The translations under genes were made by a program, and so were the position numbers. Positions 22,573 to 30,235 of a stretch of 64,000 nucleotides of DNA are shown here, one piece after another; positions within the stretch are counted from its first letter, which is position 1; each line of letters opens with the position of its first letter. The stretch is taken from positions 1-64,000 of the forward strand of contig JAFMFB010000007.1 of the NCBI GenBank assembly GCA_017856435.1, given 5' to 3'. Source of the stretch: Burkholderiaceae bacterium (lineage in GTDB: Bacteria > Pseudomonadota > Gammaproteobacteria > Burkholderiales > Burkholderiaceae_C). The notes below the pieces were generated by a model. It searched no databases, had not been told where the DNA came from, and saw nothing but the letters and a program-made list of their open reading frames with translations.

Positions 22573-23076
22573 TTACAGGAAACGATCCAGCAGTTTGCGG
22601 CTGTCGCGGTTGAGAGCGGTCAAATCGCGCACATAAAACTGAATTCCGTGGGAATCGGTGATCAACAAACCGTTGCCACCCCCGAGACGCCGAATATCCT
22701 CTTCACCCCGCAGCACAAATTCGGTATCGCCTCGATCGGTTCTCACACGCCAGGTGCACGGAGTGGAAAAACTCGTTACCGCAAGAAGTGCTTCGATCAC
22801 TGGCATGAATTCACGTGCCCGCAAGGCATCACGAATCAATTGCTGGCGGGGTTGCGGCAGGGTGCTGAGATGCTCGATCCAGGCAAGTTCATGGCCGTCG
22901 GCATCCATCAGGGCTATCCCGAACTCGGGGGCCTGGATCGGATAGGAACGTACCGGCACCACCCCAACATGGCGACCGCCCTCGGCCAAGGTCAAGACCA
23001 ATCGGCCAAAGGCATCCCGCTCAAGCTCAAAGTCGCCTGGTGGTACTTTTTCATTGCTCAGAGCCACATCGCTCAT
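22573..23076 (-). CDS. DUF1854-family protein, cyanophycin metabolism-associated by context
   Basis: ALSNEKVPPGDFELERDAFGRLVLTLAEGGRHVGVVPVRSYPIQAPEFGIALMDADGHELAWIEHL; 4-bp overlap with the ABC exporter gene, next to cphA genes. Confidence 0.8.
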   Translation of the reverse strand: MSDVALSNEKVPPGDFELERDAFGRLVLTLAEGGRHVGVVPVRSYPIQAPEFGIALMDADGHELAWIEHLSTLPQPRQQLIRDALRAREFMPVIEALLAVTSFSTPCTWRVRTDRGDTEFVLRGEEDIRRLGGGNGLLITDSHGIQFYVRDLTALNRDSRKLLDRFL

Positions 23077-25367
23077 GCCTTCACCTTAGGATCGGTCATC
23101 AAGTCGCGCTTTTCGGCCACATCATCAAGGTCCACATCCATATTGCGAGCTTGCGCCGTGTAGAGGTTGTAATAGGTCCCCTGGAGGGACATCAGCAGGT
23201 CATGGGTGCCTTCTTCAACCACCTGCCCCTTGTCCATCACCACCAGCCGATCGGCTCGCTGCAGCGTCGACAATCGGTGCGCAATGGCAATCGTTGTTCG
23301 ACCATGCACCAGATTGTCCAGCGCCTTCTGAATTTCCTTTTCCGTCTCAGAATCAACCGACGCGGTGGCCTCATCCAGAATCAGGATGCGCGGATCGATC
23401 AGCAAGGCACGGGCGATCGAAATTCTCTGGCGCTCACCGCCTGACAGCCCTTGCCCGCGCTCGCCCACCAGGGAGTCGTAGCCCTGCGGCAGACGCAGGA
23501 TGAACTCATGGGCATGCGCGGCGCGCGCGGCGGCAATGATTTCCTCGCGAGTGGCATCGGGCTTGCCATAGGCAATGTTTTCAGCAATCGACCCGAAGAA
23601 CAGGTAGGGTTCCTGCAACACCAGGCCGATATGGCGACGGTAATCGGCCACCGAAAAAGAGCGGATATCGACTCCGTCCAGCCGGATGGAACCTTCGGTC
23701 ACATCGTAGAAGCGACAGATCAGGTTGACCAGGGTACTCTTGCCCGAGCCGCTATGGCCCACCAACCCGATCATCTCGCCGGGCTGGATGGTCAGGGAGA
23801 TATCCCGGTTGACGCCCCGGTTGCCATAGCGGAAACCGACATGACGCAACTCGATCAAACCCCTCACCTGTTGAATTTGTACCGGCTGGGCTGGCTCGGG
23901 CACGCTGGAGACATGGTCGAGGATGTCAAAGATCCGCTTGGCGGCCGAAGCTGATTTTTCGGTCCAGGAAACAATTCGGCTCATTGAGTCCAGGCGACCG
24001 TAAAAACGGCTGATATAGGCAATGAAGGCGGTCAGGACACCCACTGTGATCTGATCGTTGGCAACCAACCAGATACCAAACCCCCAGACCACCAGCAAGC
24101 CAGCCTCAGTCAAAAATGAAATGCTGGGCGTAAAGAGGGACCAAATCCGGTTGATTTTGTCGTTCACCACCAGGTTATGTCGGTTGGCCTCCAGGAAGCG
24201 GCCCGATTCACGTCCTTCCTGGGCAAACGCTTTGACCACGCGAATGCCTGGAATGGTATCGGTCAGGACATTGGTCACCTCTGACCAGACCCGGTCAATT
24301 TTTTCAAAACCAGTTTTCAGATGTTCCCGTACCGCGTGAATCATCCACATGATGATGGGCAGAGGCAACAGGGTCACCAGCGCCAACCAAGGGTTGATTG
24401 AGAACAGGATGGCAGCAGTCATCAGAAGCATCACCACATCGGTGATGAAATCCAGCAGGTGCAGTGATAGAAACAGGCAGATACGGTCGGTTTCGCTGCC
24501 AATGCGCGCCACCAGATCACCGGTCCGCTTGCCGCCAAAATATTCCAGGGACAGACGCATCAGATGGTCATAGGTGGCGGTTCGCAGATCGGCTCCAATC
24601 CGCTCGGACACCAGGGCCAGAATATAGGTGCGCGCCCAGGTCAGGGCCCAGGCCACGACGGCCGCAAGCAGCAATCCGCCCAGGTAGAGCCCTACCAGTC
24701 CAGGGTCAATCTGCTTGCCGCTCTGAAAGGGAATCAGCACATCGTCCATCAAGGGCATGGTGAGATAGGGCGGTACCAGGCTGGCCGCCGTCCCCAACAG
24801 GGTCAGGATCAGGCCCCAGAGGAGTTGGCCGCGATAGGGGTGGGCAAAGCGCCAGAGGCGCAGCAGGGTCCAGGTGGACGGTGGCGTATGGATGACCTTG
24901 GCACAAATTGGACATTCGTCCTGGTCGGGCTCCAGGGGGGCCTTGCAGCTGGGGCAGAGCTGAGTATCAGGCTGCGCCACCGGTTGCCCGCTGGCCTGAC
25001 TTTCGCTGCGCAACTGAAACTGCTCAAATAGGCGCATGGCCTGTAGATTGCGCCCCAAGGTAAAACACCAGTCTGCCTGCCGTCCCTGCGCATCCAGCAG
25101 TTCAAGGTGTCCCACTCCGGCATGGTCTGAGTGCCGCAGCTGCAGCTCGGGGCGATAAGGCCAGGACCGCCAATCGGCAGCACCAACCTCCCGTGCCAGC
25201 AGGCGCTCATCGGTGGCCAGAACCAGGCCTTCGCCAAACGACAAGGCAGCGTCGAGGTCAACCTCCAGCGCGGCCCGGACGTTCTCCCCTGCGTGGAGCT
25301 GTGATTGAACGTCTGCTCGCCAGGAGGCGGGGATTTCGTTCAATAATTCGTCTGCTGTGGGCTTCAT
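23073..25367 (-). CDS. ABC transporter ATP-binding/permease (exporter type) with N-terminal extension and zinc ribbon, cyanophycin-associated
   Basis: Zinc ribbon CPSCKAPLEPDQDECPICAK, TM region, Walker A GLVGHSGSGKSTLVNLICRF, signature LSGGERQRISIARALL, Walker B RILILDEATASVD. Confidence 0.9.
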   Translation of the reverse strand: MKPTADELLNEIPASWRADVQSQLHAGENVRAALEVDLDAALSFGEGLVLATDERLLAREVGAADWRSWPYRPELQLRHSDHAGVGHLELLDAQGRQADWCFTLGRNLQAMRLFEQFQLRSESQASGQPVAQPDTQLCPSCKAPLEPDQDECPICAKVIHTPPSTWTLLRLWRFAHPYRGQLLWGLILTLLGTAASLVPPYLTMPLMDDVLIPFQSGKQIDPGLVGLYLGGLLLAAVVAWALTWARTYILALVSERIGADLRTATYDHLMRLSLEYFGGKRTGDLVARIGSETDRICLFLSLHLLDFITDVVMLLMTAAILFSINPWLALVTLLPLPIIMWMIHAVREHLKTGFEKIDRVWSEVTNVLTDTIPGIRVVKAFAQEGRESGRFLEANRHNLVVNDKINRIWSLFTPSISFLTEAGLLVVWGFGIWLVANDQITVGVLTAFIAYISRFYGRLDSMSRIVSWTEKSASAAKRIFDILDHVSSVPEPAQPVQIQQVRGLIELRHVGFRYGNRGVNRDISLTIQPGEMIGLVGHSGSGKSTLVNLICRFYDVTEGSIRLDGVDIRSFSVADYRRHIGLVLQEPYLFFGSIAENIAYGKPDATREEIIAAARAAHAHEFILRLPQGYDSLVGERGQGLSGGERQRISIARALLIDPRILILDEATASVDSETEKEIQKALDNLVHGRTTIAIAHRLSTLQRADRLVVMDKGQVVEEGTHDLLMSLQGTYYNLYTAQARNMDVDLDDVAEKRDLMTDPKVKA

Positions 25368-25494: not shown

Positions 25495-27660
25495 ATGACA
25501 AGGAAAAACATTCAATTGCTCAGGGTGACCCACCTCAAGGGCCCCAATATTTGGACCTACCGTCCCGTCATCGAAGCTTGGGTCGATATCGGCGAGCTGG
25601 AAGATTTCCCCTCCAACACCCTGCCCGGATTCTACGAGCGTTTGACAGCCTGGCTGCCCGGCCTAATCGAGCATCGCTGCGGCGTCGGTGAACGCGGAGG
25701 GTTTTTGTTGCGCTTGCGCGAGGGAACCTGGGCCGGCCATATCCTGGAACATGTTGCGATTGAACTGCAGAACCTATCCGGCATGCAGTTGGGTTTTGGC
25801 AAGGCCCGCCAGACCAGCCAGCGCGGCATCTACAAGGTGGCATTTCGAACCCGACAGGAAGAGGTGGGCCGCGCCGCGCTCGAGTCTGCCCGCGACCTGG
25901 TCATGGCCGCCATCGAGGACACGCCGTTTAACGTCGATTTGGCCGTGGCCAGGCTGCGCGAACTGCGCGAACGCTGGTATCTGGGCCCGAGCACCGAGCA
26001 TATAGTGGCGGCCGCGATTGACCGCCAAATCCCGCACATCCGACTCAATGAGGGCAATTTGGTTCAACTGGGCTATGGCGCGGCCCAACACCGAATCTGG
26101 ACTGCAGAGACTGACCTGACCAGTGCGATTGCCGAGGGCATCGCGCGCGACAAGACCCTGACCAAAACCCTGCTGAAAACCTGCGGCGTCCCGGTCCCTG
26201 AAGGAGAAGAGGTGGAAAGCCCCGAGCAGGCCTGGGAAGTGGCTCAGGAGATTGGCCTGCCGGTGACCGTCAAGCCAACCGATGCCAACCATGGACGGGG
26301 GGTGTTTACCGACCTGCGTGACCGCAAGGATATTGAACAGGCTTATCAGGCAGCCGACAAGGAAGGCAACGGGGTGCTGGTGGAGCGCTTTGTCAAGGGT
26401 GAAGCCCATCGCCTGCTGGTGGTTGGCAGCCAGGTTGTAGCCGCCACGCGGGGCAAGATGCAGACCGTGGTGGGCGATGGCCAATCCAGTGTGCTGCAGT
26501 TGATTGACCTGCAAATCAACAGCGACCCGCGCTGCGGCGAGGAAGAGGAGTTTCCGCTAGAACCCCTGGTGCTGGACAAGGAACCCATCGTACAGCTTGA
26601 ACTGGCTCGCCAGGGTCTGAGCGCTCAGGCAATTGTCCCAGCTGGCCAAACTGTCCTGCTGAAACGAAACGGCGATCTAGCCTATGACGAGACCGACCTG
26701 GTCCATCCCAAGGTGGCTGAAGTGGCGGCCTTGGCGGCACGTGTGGTGGGCCTGGACATCGCCGGCATAGACATGGTGGTTCAGGATATTTCCCGACCCC
26801 TGCCTGAACAGCAAGGCGCCATTATTGAAGTAAACGCTGGCCCCGGCCTGCTGATGCACCTCAAGCCCGCTGAAGGCGAGCCGCGAAATGTAGGCAAGGC
26901 CATCATGGAGCATTTGTTTCCAGGCCAGGATCAGGGGCGGATTCCTGTTGTGGGCGTCACTGGCAGCGGCAACACCACCCGCATTGCACGGCTGGTGGCC
27001 TGGCTTTTGCACATCAGCGGCAAGCAGGTCGGGCTCGCCTGCCATGATGGTTTTTTCCTGAATGAGCGTCAGGTGGATGCAAGCAACGCCATGAACTGGG
27101 AAACCGGACAGCGCCTGCTGATCAACCGCAGCCTGCAAGCTGCCGTGTTTGAGAATGACAGCCGCATGATTTTGTCTGAAGGCTTGGCGTATGACCGCTG
27201 CACCGTGGGTGTGGTGACCGGTCTGGGCGACCCCTCGGAGCTGCAGGAGTTTTACATCGACGACCCGGACCGTCTGTTCACCGTCCTGCGCACCCAGGTG
27301 GATGTCGTGCTGCCCTGGGGCGTGGCGGTCCTCAATGCTGATGACCCCAAGGTGGTTGAAATGGCCGAACTGTCTGACGGGGAAGTGATCTTTTACGGCC
27401 TGCAGGCGGACTCAGCGGACTTGCTCAGTCACGCCAGCACGGGCGGGCGCACTGTCTTTTTGCGCGACGGTCAGATCACCCTTGCCAAAGGCAAAGAGGA
27501 ATCCATCCTGATGCCGCTGCATTCCCTCAAGCCTTCCAAGGTTGCCCAACCCCAGATGGTTTTGGCCGCTGTGGCAACCGCCTGGGCGTTGGACATACCT
27601 CTTGAATTGATGGGGGCGGGTCTGCGCACCTTTGACGCCAAACAAGAACCAAATTTCTGA
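25495..27660 (+). CDS. cphA': cyanophycin synthetase-like protein (CphA' / CphA2-like, degenerate Mur-ligase half)
   Basis: 721 aa; N-domain and intact ATP-grasp motifs (GLPVTVKPTDANHGRGV, IIEVNAGPGL), but P-loop reads GVTGSGNTTR and the C-terminal Mur lobe is absent. Confidence 0.85.
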   Translation: MTRKNIQLLRVTHLKGPNIWTYRPVIEAWVDIGELEDFPSNTLPGFYERLTAWLPGLIEHRCGVGERGGFLLRLREGTWAGHILEHVAIELQNLSGMQLGFGKARQTSQRGIYKVAFRTRQEEVGRAALESARDLVMAAIEDTPFNVDLAVARLRELRERWYLGPSTEHIVAAAIDRQIPHIRLNEGNLVQLGYGAAQHRIWTAETDLTSAIAEGIARDKTLTKTLLKTCGVPVPEGEEVESPEQAWEVAQEIGLPVTVKPTDANHGRGVFTDLRDRKDIEQAYQAADKEGNGVLVERFVKGEAHRLLVVGSQVVAATRGKMQTVVGDGQSSVLQLIDLQINSDPRCGEEEEFPLEPLVLDKEPIVQLELARQGLSAQAIVPAGQTVLLKRNGDLAYDETDLVHPKVAEVAALAARVVGLDIAGIDMVVQDISRPLPEQQGAIIEVNAGPGLLMHLKPAEGEPRNVGKAIMEHLFPGQDQGRIPVVGVTGSGNTTRIARLVAWLLHISGKQVGLACHDGFFLNERQVDASNAMNWETGQRLLINRSLQAAVFENDSRMILSEGLAYDRCTVGVVTGLGDPSELQEFYIDDPDRLFTVLRTQVDVVLPWGVAVLNADDPKVVEMAELSDGEVIFYGLQADSADLLSHASTGGRTVFLRDGQITLAKGKEESILMPLHSLKPSKVAQPQMVLAAVATAWALDIPLELMGAGLRTFDAKQEPNF

Positions 27661-27661
27661 C

Positions 27662-30235
27662 ATGAAAGTTTCACGCATTCGCGCGCTGCGAGGCCCTAAT
27701 CTGTGGAGCCACCATACTTCGATCGAAGCGGTAGTGCACTGCACCCCTGAGGAGATCAGCCTCAATCCCCGGGAGGAATTCGGTTTCCGTTTGCGTGCCC
27801 GTTTTCCCGGCATTCTGCCCCTCACCCCAATCGGCCAGGATGAAAATGTATCGATGGCCCATGTACTGGAGGTGGCCGCTTTGGCCCTGCAGGCCCAGGC
27901 CGGATGTACGGTCAGCTTCAGCCGCACCACCGCCACCGTCGAGCCCGGCGTATTTCAGGTGGTGGTCGAATACACCGAAGAGGATGTCGGTCGAATGGCG
28001 ATTGACATGGCCGAGCAACTTTGCCAGGCGGCCCTAGAAGACTCGCCCTTTGACCTGGCCAAGGCTTTGGCGGAGTTGCGCGAGCTGGATGAAGACATCC
28101 GCCTGGGGCCCAGTACCGGATCGATTGTGAACGCAGCCCTGGCCCGTGGCATTCCCTACCGCAGGCTGACGACTGGCAGCATGATTGCCTTTGGATGGGG
28201 CAGCAAGCAACGCCGGATTCAGGCCGCCGAGATCGACAAAACCAGCGCCATCGCTGAATCGATTGCACAAGACAAGGAACTCACCAAGAAACTTCTGGCG
28301 GCCGCTGGTGTGCCTGTGCCGACGGGACGCGAAGTCGATTCGGTTGAGCAGGCCTGGGAAGCCGCGCAGGTCATTGGTTTGCCCGTGGTCATCAAACCGA
28401 AGAAGGGTAACCAGGGCAAGGGTGTCACCGTCAATATCAACAGCCGCGAGCAACTGGCGGCGGCTTACGCAGCGGCACAGGAATACGACAACGAAATCCT
28501 GGTCGAGCGATTTTTGCCCGGTAACGACTACCGCCTGCTGGTGGTTGGAGACCGTCTGGTGGCTGCGGCTCGCCGGGATCCTCCCAGCGTGGTGGGCGAT
28601 GGTATCCATAGCGTGCGCGAACTGGTGGAAACGGTCAACAAGGATCCGCGACGCGGAACCGGACATGCCACCTCACTGACAAAAATACGCTTTGATGACA
28701 TTGCCTTGACCTGCCTGGGCCTGCAAGGGCTTCAGGCTGACTCCATTCCTGCCAAAGGCAACCGTGTCAACCTGCGTCACAACGCCAACCTCTCAACCGG
28801 CGGCAGTGCCACCGATGTCACGGACGACGTTCATCCTGAGGTCGCCATGCGCGCTGTTGCTGCCGCCCAGATGGTGGGGCTGGATGTCTGTGGCGTTGAC
28901 ATGGTCTGCGAGAGCATTTTGAATCCCCTGGAAAAGCAGGGTGGCGGTATTGTGGAAGTCAATGCTGCGCCTGGCCTGCGCATGCACCTGGCCCCGTCCT
29001 ATGGCAAGGGGCGTGCCGTGGGTGAAGCCATCGTCCAGCACATGTTCGGCGATCATGAAACTGGGCGTATCCCCGTGGTTGCCGTCACTGGAACCAATGG
29101 CAAGACCACCACCGTACGCCTGATTGCCTACCTGCTCGAAATCAGCGGCCTGCGGGTGGGCATGACAGGAACCGACGGCGTCTATATCAGCGGCGAATGC
29201 ATCGACACCGGTGACTGCAGCGGCCCGAAAAGCGCGCGCAGCGTCTTGGCCCACCCCAATGTGGATGCTGCCGTGCTGGAAACAGCGCGGGGCGGTATCT
29301 TGCGCGAAGGGCTGGCCTTTGATCGTTGCGATGTCGCGGTGGTCACCAACATCGGAGCGGGTGATCATCTGGGATTGAACTTCATTACCACGGTGGAGGA
29401 TCTGGCGGTGCTCAAGCGGGTCGTTGTCCAGAACATTGCCCCCGCCGGCATGGCCGTGCTCAATGCAGCCGATCCCATGGTGGTTGAGATGGCCAACCAT
29501 AACCGGGGGGCCCAGGTTACTTTCTTCGCCCTCGATCGAAACCATCCGGTGATGGCGACCCATCTGGCGCAGGGCCGGCGAGCCGTGTTTACCGAATCGG
29601 GCCATCTGGTGATTGCAGAAGGCAACCGCAGGCAAAGCGTTCCCTTGTCCGATATACCGCTTACCCATGGCGGCCTGATCGGATTCCAGGTCGAAAATGT
29701 GATGGCAGCCGCGGCAGCGGCCTGGGCGCTGGGTCTGGACTGGCAGGTGATTTGCCGTGGCCTGGCCAGCTTTACCAATGACAACGACAACGCGCAGGGG
29801 CGCTTCAATGTCTTTAACTTTCGTGGCGCCCAGGTGATCGCCGACTATGGCCACAATCCCGATGCGATGCAGGCCCTGGTCCGCGCGGTCGAGGCCATGC
29901 CGGCTCGGCGGCGCTCGGTGGTCATCAGTGGCGCCGGTGATCGGCGTGATGAAGACATACGCGAACAGACCCGCATTCTGGGTCGGGCCTTTGACCAGGT
30001 TGTTTTGTACCAGGATGCCTGCCAGCGCGGTCGCGCTGACGGCGAGGTTCTGGCGCTGCTACGCGAGGGCCTGGCAGGTGCGCAGCGAACCGGTGAAGTC
30101 CAGGAAATCTATGGTGAATTTCTTGCCATTGACACCGCACTGGACCGGCTTGGGGACGGTGATCTGTGTCTCGTTCTGGTCGACCAGGTGGAACTGGCAC
30201 TCGAACATATCCGTAAGCGTGTCGCCCAGGGATAG
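27662..30235 (+). CDS. cphA: cyanophycin synthetase
   Basis: About 857 aa; ATP-grasp VIKPKKGNQGKGV, Mur-ligase P-loop VTGTNGKTTTVRL, DCSGPKSARSVL, C-lobe DYGHNPDAMQALV; starts 1 nt after cphA' stop. Confidence 0.95.
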   Translation: MKVSRIRALRGPNLWSHHTSIEAVVHCTPEEISLNPREEFGFRLRARFPGILPLTPIGQDENVSMAHVLEVAALALQAQAGCTVSFSRTTATVEPGVFQVVVEYTEEDVGRMAIDMAEQLCQAALEDSPFDLAKALAELRELDEDIRLGPSTGSIVNAALARGIPYRRLTTGSMIAFGWGSKQRRIQAAEIDKTSAIAESIAQDKELTKKLLAAAGVPVPTGREVDSVEQAWEAAQVIGLPVVIKPKKGNQGKGVTVNINSREQLAAAYAAAQEYDNEILVERFLPGNDYRLLVVGDRLVAAARRDPPSVVGDGIHSVRELVETVNKDPRRGTGHATSLTKIRFDDIALTCLGLQGLQADSIPAKGNRVNLRHNANLSTGGSATDVTDDVHPEVAMRAVAAAQMVGLDVCGVDMVCESILNPLEKQGGGIVEVNAAPGLRMHLAPSYGKGRAVGEAIVQHMFGDHETGRIPVVAVTGTNGKTTTVRLIAYLLEISGLRVGMTGTDGVYISGECIDTGDCSGPKSARSVLAHPNVDAAVLETARGGILREGLAFDRCDVAVVTNIGAGDHLGLNFITTVEDLAVLKRVVVQNIAPAGMAVLNAADPMVVEMANHNRGAQVTFFALDRNHPVMATHLAQGRRAVFTESGHLVIAEGNRRQSVPLSDIPLTHGGLIGFQVENVMAAAAAAWALGLDWQVICRGLASFTNDNDNAQGRFNVFNFRGAQVIADYGHNPDAMQALVRAVEAMPARRRSVVISGAGDRRDEDIREQTRILGRAFDQVVLYQDACQRGRADGEVLALLREGLAGAQRTGEVQEIYGEFLAIDTALDRLGDGDLCLVLVDQVELALEHIRKRVAQG

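Follow-up and report, generated by a model that had tools for sequence, protein, structure and literature searches.

Two adjoining cyanophycin synthetase genes, here called A and B, lie in the window (the whole 64,000-nucleotide stretch of DNA that was analysed) and share out between them the residues of three active sites that CphA1 carries in a single protein. Reading these residues, we favour, at about even odds (a probability of roughly 0.5), the hypothesis that A and B are a split and subfunctionalised CphA1, in which B would elongate the chain and A would supply the primer-making cut in trans. In CphA1 this cut is made by the N domain, a zinc endo-cyanophycinase that makes primers (PMC9262961).

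Gene A (25495..27660, forward strand, as are all features of A and B given below; 721 aa) encodes a reduced CphA1 paralogue consisting of the N domain, the ATP-grasp G domain and the M-core, with the M-lid absent. Gene B (27662..30235, 857 aa) encodes a full-length CphA1 paralogue. The listed start of B, a TTG at 27632, falls within A; the homologous start is the ATG at 27662, which leaves one base between the stop codon of A and the start of B. Profile searches placed both proteins in the cyanophycin synthetase family, both matching NF010623. A scored 1001 bits against this broader model, the only one it passed, and 692 bits against TIGR02068, under the equivalog cut-off of 850, which B exceeded with 996 bits. 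Pfam matches to the Mur middle and C-terminal domains were found in B only, and none in A. That the cphA genes stand in tandem, as the first-pass annotation had proposed, is both real and very common: at least two copies were present in 101 of the 112 Burkholderiales genomes with a match. Searches of the source genome found no third cphA copy and no cyanophycinase. Divergent from A, on the reverse strand, are a gene for an ABC transporter (23073..25367; 1388 bits to NF052233, an NCBI model named as cyanophycin metabolism-associated, with a cut-off of 880) and, overlapping its end, one for a DUF1854 protein (22573..23076; 225 bits to NF052234, likewise cyanophycin metabolism-associated, cut-off 150). 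We detected no similarity between the ABC and DUF1854 proteins, and no sigma-70-like promoter was found in the gap between the divergent ABC gene and A. The ABC transporter (within 22573-25367) has an N-terminal extension with a zinc-ribbon-like CxxC...CxxC stretch.

Tandem loci yielded 61 A and 60 B proteins, which we aligned to SuCphA1 and read in SuCphA1 numbering, with 25 single-copy CphA1 proteins from the same class as controls; the counts that follow for A, B and single CphA1 ignore the relatedness of the sequences. The states seen in the source A and B recur across these 61 and 60 homologues. All sites are kept in 24 of the 25 single CphA1 proteins, apart from one H267Q, and the remaining protein (L166) is a truncated sequence with Q267 and a degenerate Mur half.

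The clearest division concerns the N domain. Its primer-making motif, Cx19HxxEH, is present in 61/61 A and 0/60 B. In the source A the zinc-peptidase motif is intact (25672..25752), with H60, C62, H82, E85 and H86 corresponding to H57, C59, H79, E82 and H83 of SuCphA1. The metal ligands C59, H79 and H83, the base E82 and the supporting residues H57, R70 and E87 are invariant in all 61 A proteins of this first sample, so that A has every residue expected of an N-domain endo-cyanophycinase. The corresponding site of B (27839..27892, HVLEVAALALQ) is degenerate: C59 and H83 are lost and the loop from C59 to H79 is shortened. About 83% of CphA1 proteins have Cx19HxxEH, and the motif is therefore not strictly defining for CphA1.

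The Mur half shows the reverse pattern. Here the first-pass annotation had described A as lacking the Walker Lys, the catalytic His region and the C-lobe, and alignment and Pfam bear out all three losses. The degenerate Mur P-loop of A, VTGSGNTTRIARL (26956..26994), has T494, within VTGSGNTT, at the Walker Lys position, and B has the canonical loop VTGTNGKTTTVRL (29084..29122). Each is 13 letters long and the two align without a gap, so the A loop is not one residue shorter, as had been thought. K499 is found in 13/61 A against 59/60 B. The catalytic Asp-His of the Mur site is lost from A at TGLGDPSELQ (27217..27246), where the DH of DHLG reads SE; D585 is kept in 15/61 and H586 in 11/61 A proteins, and R561 is lost in every one of the 61. 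A ends where the M-core ends. With K499, R561, D585 and H586 lost and the C-lobe absent, it has none of these features of the Arg-adding Mur site of CphA1. The C-lobe survives in only five, basal-looking A proteins (L089, L100, L103, L112 and L114), and these, together with the residual K499, indicate that the Mur half of A decayed stepwise. B has a complete Mur site, with GTNGKTT, R561, the DH pair (29363-29368) and the M-lid, or Mur C-terminal lobe (29798..30232), which is matched by PF02875 in B and not in A. D585 and H586 are both kept in 58/60 B proteins, the other two being truncated sequences, and the few B proteins that deviate from the intact Mur site do so at single positions.

The ATP-grasp half is divided in a subtler manner. 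Its ATP and metal residues are retained in A and in B. In CphA1, the beta-carboxylate of the incoming Asp is bound by R323 and N394 and its alpha-carboxylate by R458, and Ala mutants of these three residues are impaired; the acyl-phosphate is stabilised by H267 and R309, the former being Tyr or Phe in GshF relatives (PMC9427784). The view that the ATP-grasp half of A is intact holds for the ATP and acyl-phosphate residues (K220, K261, H267, R309, D431 and E450 are retained, and the P-loop VKPTDANHGRGV, 26269..26304, has His266 in the place of H267, which is retained in 56/61 A), but it does not hold for Asp recognition. At the R323 position the source A has Gly320 (26452..26454); Gly occurs here in 58/61 A proteins, against Arg in all 60 B and all 25 single CphA1 proteins. 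Five residues of the G-omega Asp-recognition loop, S396-I400, are deleted after Leu395 (26659..26682); S396 is a gap in 61/61 A, while every B (60/60) and every single CphA1 (25/25) has Ser there. Leu453 replaces R458 (26851..26853), with Leu in 57/61 A and Arg again in all 60 B and 25 single CphA1 proteins. N394, which is Asp in the source A, is mostly kept across the A family, so that the source A reads G, D and L at the three Asp-binding positions. The acceptor side of this half has thus been remodelled uniformly across the family and is not a product of random decay.

B, by comparison, keeps the whole Asp pocket: the Asp-recognition loop RHNANLSTGG, with N394 and S396, is intact (28775..28804), R458 is kept (28979-28981), and R323, N394, S396 and R458 are each present in 60/60 B. 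The first-pass annotation had considered B canonical, which is correct for its Mur motifs and C-lobe, but B has lost the N-domain peptidase motif, and Gln251 stands at the His267 position of its ATP-grasp P-loop, VIKPKKGNQGKG (28388..28423). Position 267 is Gln in 56/60 and His in 4/60 B proteins, and it is the only departure from the pair H267 and R309, R309 being kept in 60/60. With the H267A substitution, SuCphA1 has an inactive G site and TeCphA1 is impaired, which raises the possibility that B with Gln267 is inactive at this site. There is, however, a single CphA1 of the same family (L152, genome G564), with a cyanophycinase gene adjoining, which has Gln267 and otherwise intact catalytic residues, and this suggests that Gln is probably tolerated at position 267.

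The A/B pattern is repeated in Herbaspirillum, Limnohabitans, Azospira and several Comamonadaceae. In a phylogenetic tree, which is unrooted, the A proteins form one clade and the B proteins another, each with an SH-aLRT support of 100, and the single CphA1 proteins and the solved cyanobacterial enzymes fall opposite A and B, a topology that fits one duplication. Every domain of A is under purifying selection: the median dN/dS values for its N, G and M parts are 0.10, 0.10 and 0.13 in Herbaspirillum, and medians of 0.04-0.05 were obtained in Limnohabitans-like strains. The AlphaFold2 model of A has a confident N-G-Mcore fold (pLDDT 91). Its best match in the PDB is TeCphA1 with substrates bound (7wae, TMq 0.90), and the Foldseek match to SuCphA1 has 36% identity. 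The AlphaFold model of B (pLDDT 79, pTM 0.63) was too weak to be used. The many Mur residues lost from A could also be explained if A were a decaying pseudogene or if its changes were sequencing errors, but this is scarcely credible and we rejected it: 61 homologues share the same states, dN/dS is about 0.04-0.13 in every domain and the protein retains a confident full fold. An error hiding GTNGKTT and the C-lobe, which had been raised at first pass, is excluded by the identical states across the 61 A and 60 B homologues.

How might two such proteins work together? We propose that A and B arose when an ordinary CphA1 with all three sites was duplicated once, after which the active sites would have been shared out. 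B would add Asp with its ATP-grasp half and Arg with its Mur half, and would be incapable of making its own primers. In most lineages, the N-domain zinc endopeptidase of A would cut nascent chains into primers in trans, while its Mur half would persist as a dead but folded scaffold and its remodelled ATP-grasp half would still use ATP, on an acceptor that is presumably no longer Asp held in the fashion of CphA1. A and B would probably form a hetero-oligomer, or at least be co-expressed partners. Cleavage in trans has a precedent: a primer-dependent CphA1 regains synthesis without primer when it is supplied with an N domain alone, or with SuCphA1 whose G and M sites are dead (PMC9262961). The authors of that work remarked that expression level cannot set the balance between cutting and building when a single enzyme carries every site (PMC9262961); with A and B as separate proteins, this ratio could become adjustable through expression. 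The first-pass annotation had suggested that A is a partner of B dedicated to Asp addition, primer making or dipeptide re-ligation. A reduced partner is indeed found almost always beside B, and primer making is the best supported of the three roles, since only A of the pair keeps Cx19HxxEH. A dedication to Asp addition is not supported: Asp is unlikely to be added by A, whose own Asp-binding residues are lost or changed, while B keeps them all.

Asp addition by A would nevertheless be needed if the two proteins formed an alternating polymerase, with the ATP-grasp half of A adding Asp and the Mur half of B adding Arg. This arrangement, which we regard as unlikely, draws on the strict pairing of A and B and on the distribution of position 267 (His in 56/61 A, Gln in 56/60 B), as well as on two lineages (L120 and L121) in which His267 is lost from A and found in B (hypergeometric p 0.03, uncorrected). 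It is opposed by R323G, the deleted Asp loop and R458L in A, by the Asp-binding residues present in 60/60 B, by four loci (L092, L119, L122 and L210) with no His267 in either protein, and by the single CphA1 with Gln267 and the rest intact (L152). With an Asp pocket and an Arg site in B and a primer site in A, we rate Asp addition by A below a role for A in making primers combined with some other use of ATP. One such use would be that of a CphA2-like ligase, whose opened acceptor pocket joins beta-Asp-Arg dipeptides or oligomers, for example the pieces released by its own N domain. A resembles CphA2 in being reduced, with one plausible ligase site and a truncated, non-working Mur half. Its ATP and acyl-phosphate residues are retained beside a uniformly remodelled acceptor side, and CphA2 structures are the next-best matches to its model after CphA1 (0.62-0.68). 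However, CphA2 does not have the N-domain motif (PMC9262961) that is conserved in A, A is clearly nearer to CphA1 (456 bits to SuCphA1 against 190 bits to CphA2), and a dipeptide-releasing cyanophycinase is not recognisable in 46 of 54 pair genomes, all of which make a ligase of this kind quite improbable.

This scarcity of cyanophycinase bears on two further readings. Cyanophycinase (TIGR02069 above cut-off) was found in 25/25 single-CphA1 genomes as against 8/54 pair genomes (Fisher 6e-14, with kinship ignored), and in these 54 genomes its gene never adjoins the A/B pair. Genes for the ABC transporter and the DUF1854 protein adjoin 56/60 A/B pairs and 0/20 single CphA1 loci. It could be that A mainly degrades polymer, its N-domain endopeptidase mobilising the store where cyanophycinase is absent, with B as the synthetase. 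This fits the cyanophycinase counts, and most pair genomes are left with no recognised cyanophycin-cutting site other than the N motif. But the N domain cleaves slowly and releases mainly tetramers, not dipeptides (PMC9262961), the motif is missing from the Zwartia group too, and an unrelated depolymerase may exist; we therefore hold this reading to be very unlikely. A further, decidedly doubtful idea is that A, B, the ABC transporter and the DUF1854 protein form an export-coupled system for a cyanophycin-like product, in which B would build the chain, the N domain of A would cut it to oligomers and the ABC transporter would export them. Export would account both for the missing cyanophycinase and for the lack of visible polymer in Ralstonia eutropha, where, according to a review, the two homologues of strain H16 gave no cyanophycin when overexpressed or when expressed in E. 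coli (PMC8560796, citing Adames 2013). Under the split-CphA1 hypothesis, this negative result could reflect a wrong ratio of subunits, a missing primer or a soluble or exported product, or it could mean that our reading of the partition is wrong.

The partition has exceptions. In the Zwartia group (five loci, L216-L218, L226 and L228, from Zwartia hollandica and related MAGs), A is without C59 and H79 and retains its ATP-grasp residues; B and the ABC gene are still there, and in the two loci with complete flanks (L226 and L228) the ABC and DUF1854 genes still adjoin the pair. Comamonas avium and C. jiangduensis (L223 and L224) have a degenerate A of about 664 aa that has lost the N motif, and no B, ABC or DUF1854 gene was found in the fetched flanks of these loci; such orphan A genes may be decaying. 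The A proteins of L119-L122 keep the N site despite the loss of His267 or of other ATP-grasp residues. They suggested that the N-domain site is the sole irreducible function of A, an idea that the Zwartia group refutes. Together, the Zwartia, Comamonas and His267-less loci indicate that each site retained by A is dispensable in some lineage.

The tandem layout itself is already published. Activated-sludge 'Group 1' clusters have two adjoining cphA genes and an ABC gene and no cphB (PMC10687191), which is the layout seen here, Sideroxydans has two adjoining cphA copies (PMC5178258), and two-copy beta-proteobacteria are also noted elsewhere (PMC5670224, PMC11362209). Like our locus, R. eutropha H16, Sideroxydans and the Group 1 clusters have two cphA genes, but the accessible reports on them deal only with the number and layout of the copies and give no partition of active sites; nor did we find a report of one in a literature search that largely left out subscription journals. 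Among well-characterised enzymes, CphA1 (SuCphA1, TeCphA1) shares its three-domain fold with the family of the A/B pair, and B is above its TIGR02068 cut-off, but CphA1 has three sites in one protein and here they are spread over two adjoining genes. Like B, the primer-dependent TmCphA1 is without the N-domain motif (PMC9262961); unlike B, it keeps H267, and B has a motif-bearing partner in A.

Of the complete genomes encoding CphA1, 903/1614 are beta-proteobacterial, and 2.8% of these have a recognisable cyanophycinase (PMC10206079). If most CphA1-encoding beta-proteobacteria have the split pair, more than half of known cyanophycin genomes would be without the textbook one-protein enzyme. Roughly 20% of CphA1 proteins are labelled primer-dependent for want of the N-domain motif. 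Some of these may be B proteins whose primer-making site is encoded on the adjoining gene, and published negative expression results would be worth re-testing with both proteins together at controlled ratios. The old puzzle of why these bacteria have no cyanophycinase and a conserved adjoining transporter also becomes directly testable.

Additional CphA-like genes were observed at several loci. In genus g462 (L091 in genome G1027, and genomes G820 and G1055), the A/B pair is accompanied by a third CphA-like gene, and in G1027 there are cyanophycinase genes as well, at other places in the genome. Three single-copy CphA1 loci of the same order (L154, L157 and L158) have an adjoining second ORF with 34-43% identity to the Mur half of B. 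Outside the order, L021, L022 and L028 (genomes G230 and G015) encode divergent CphA-like proteins in which catalytic residues of the ATP-grasp half are altered and the Mur motifs are degenerate.
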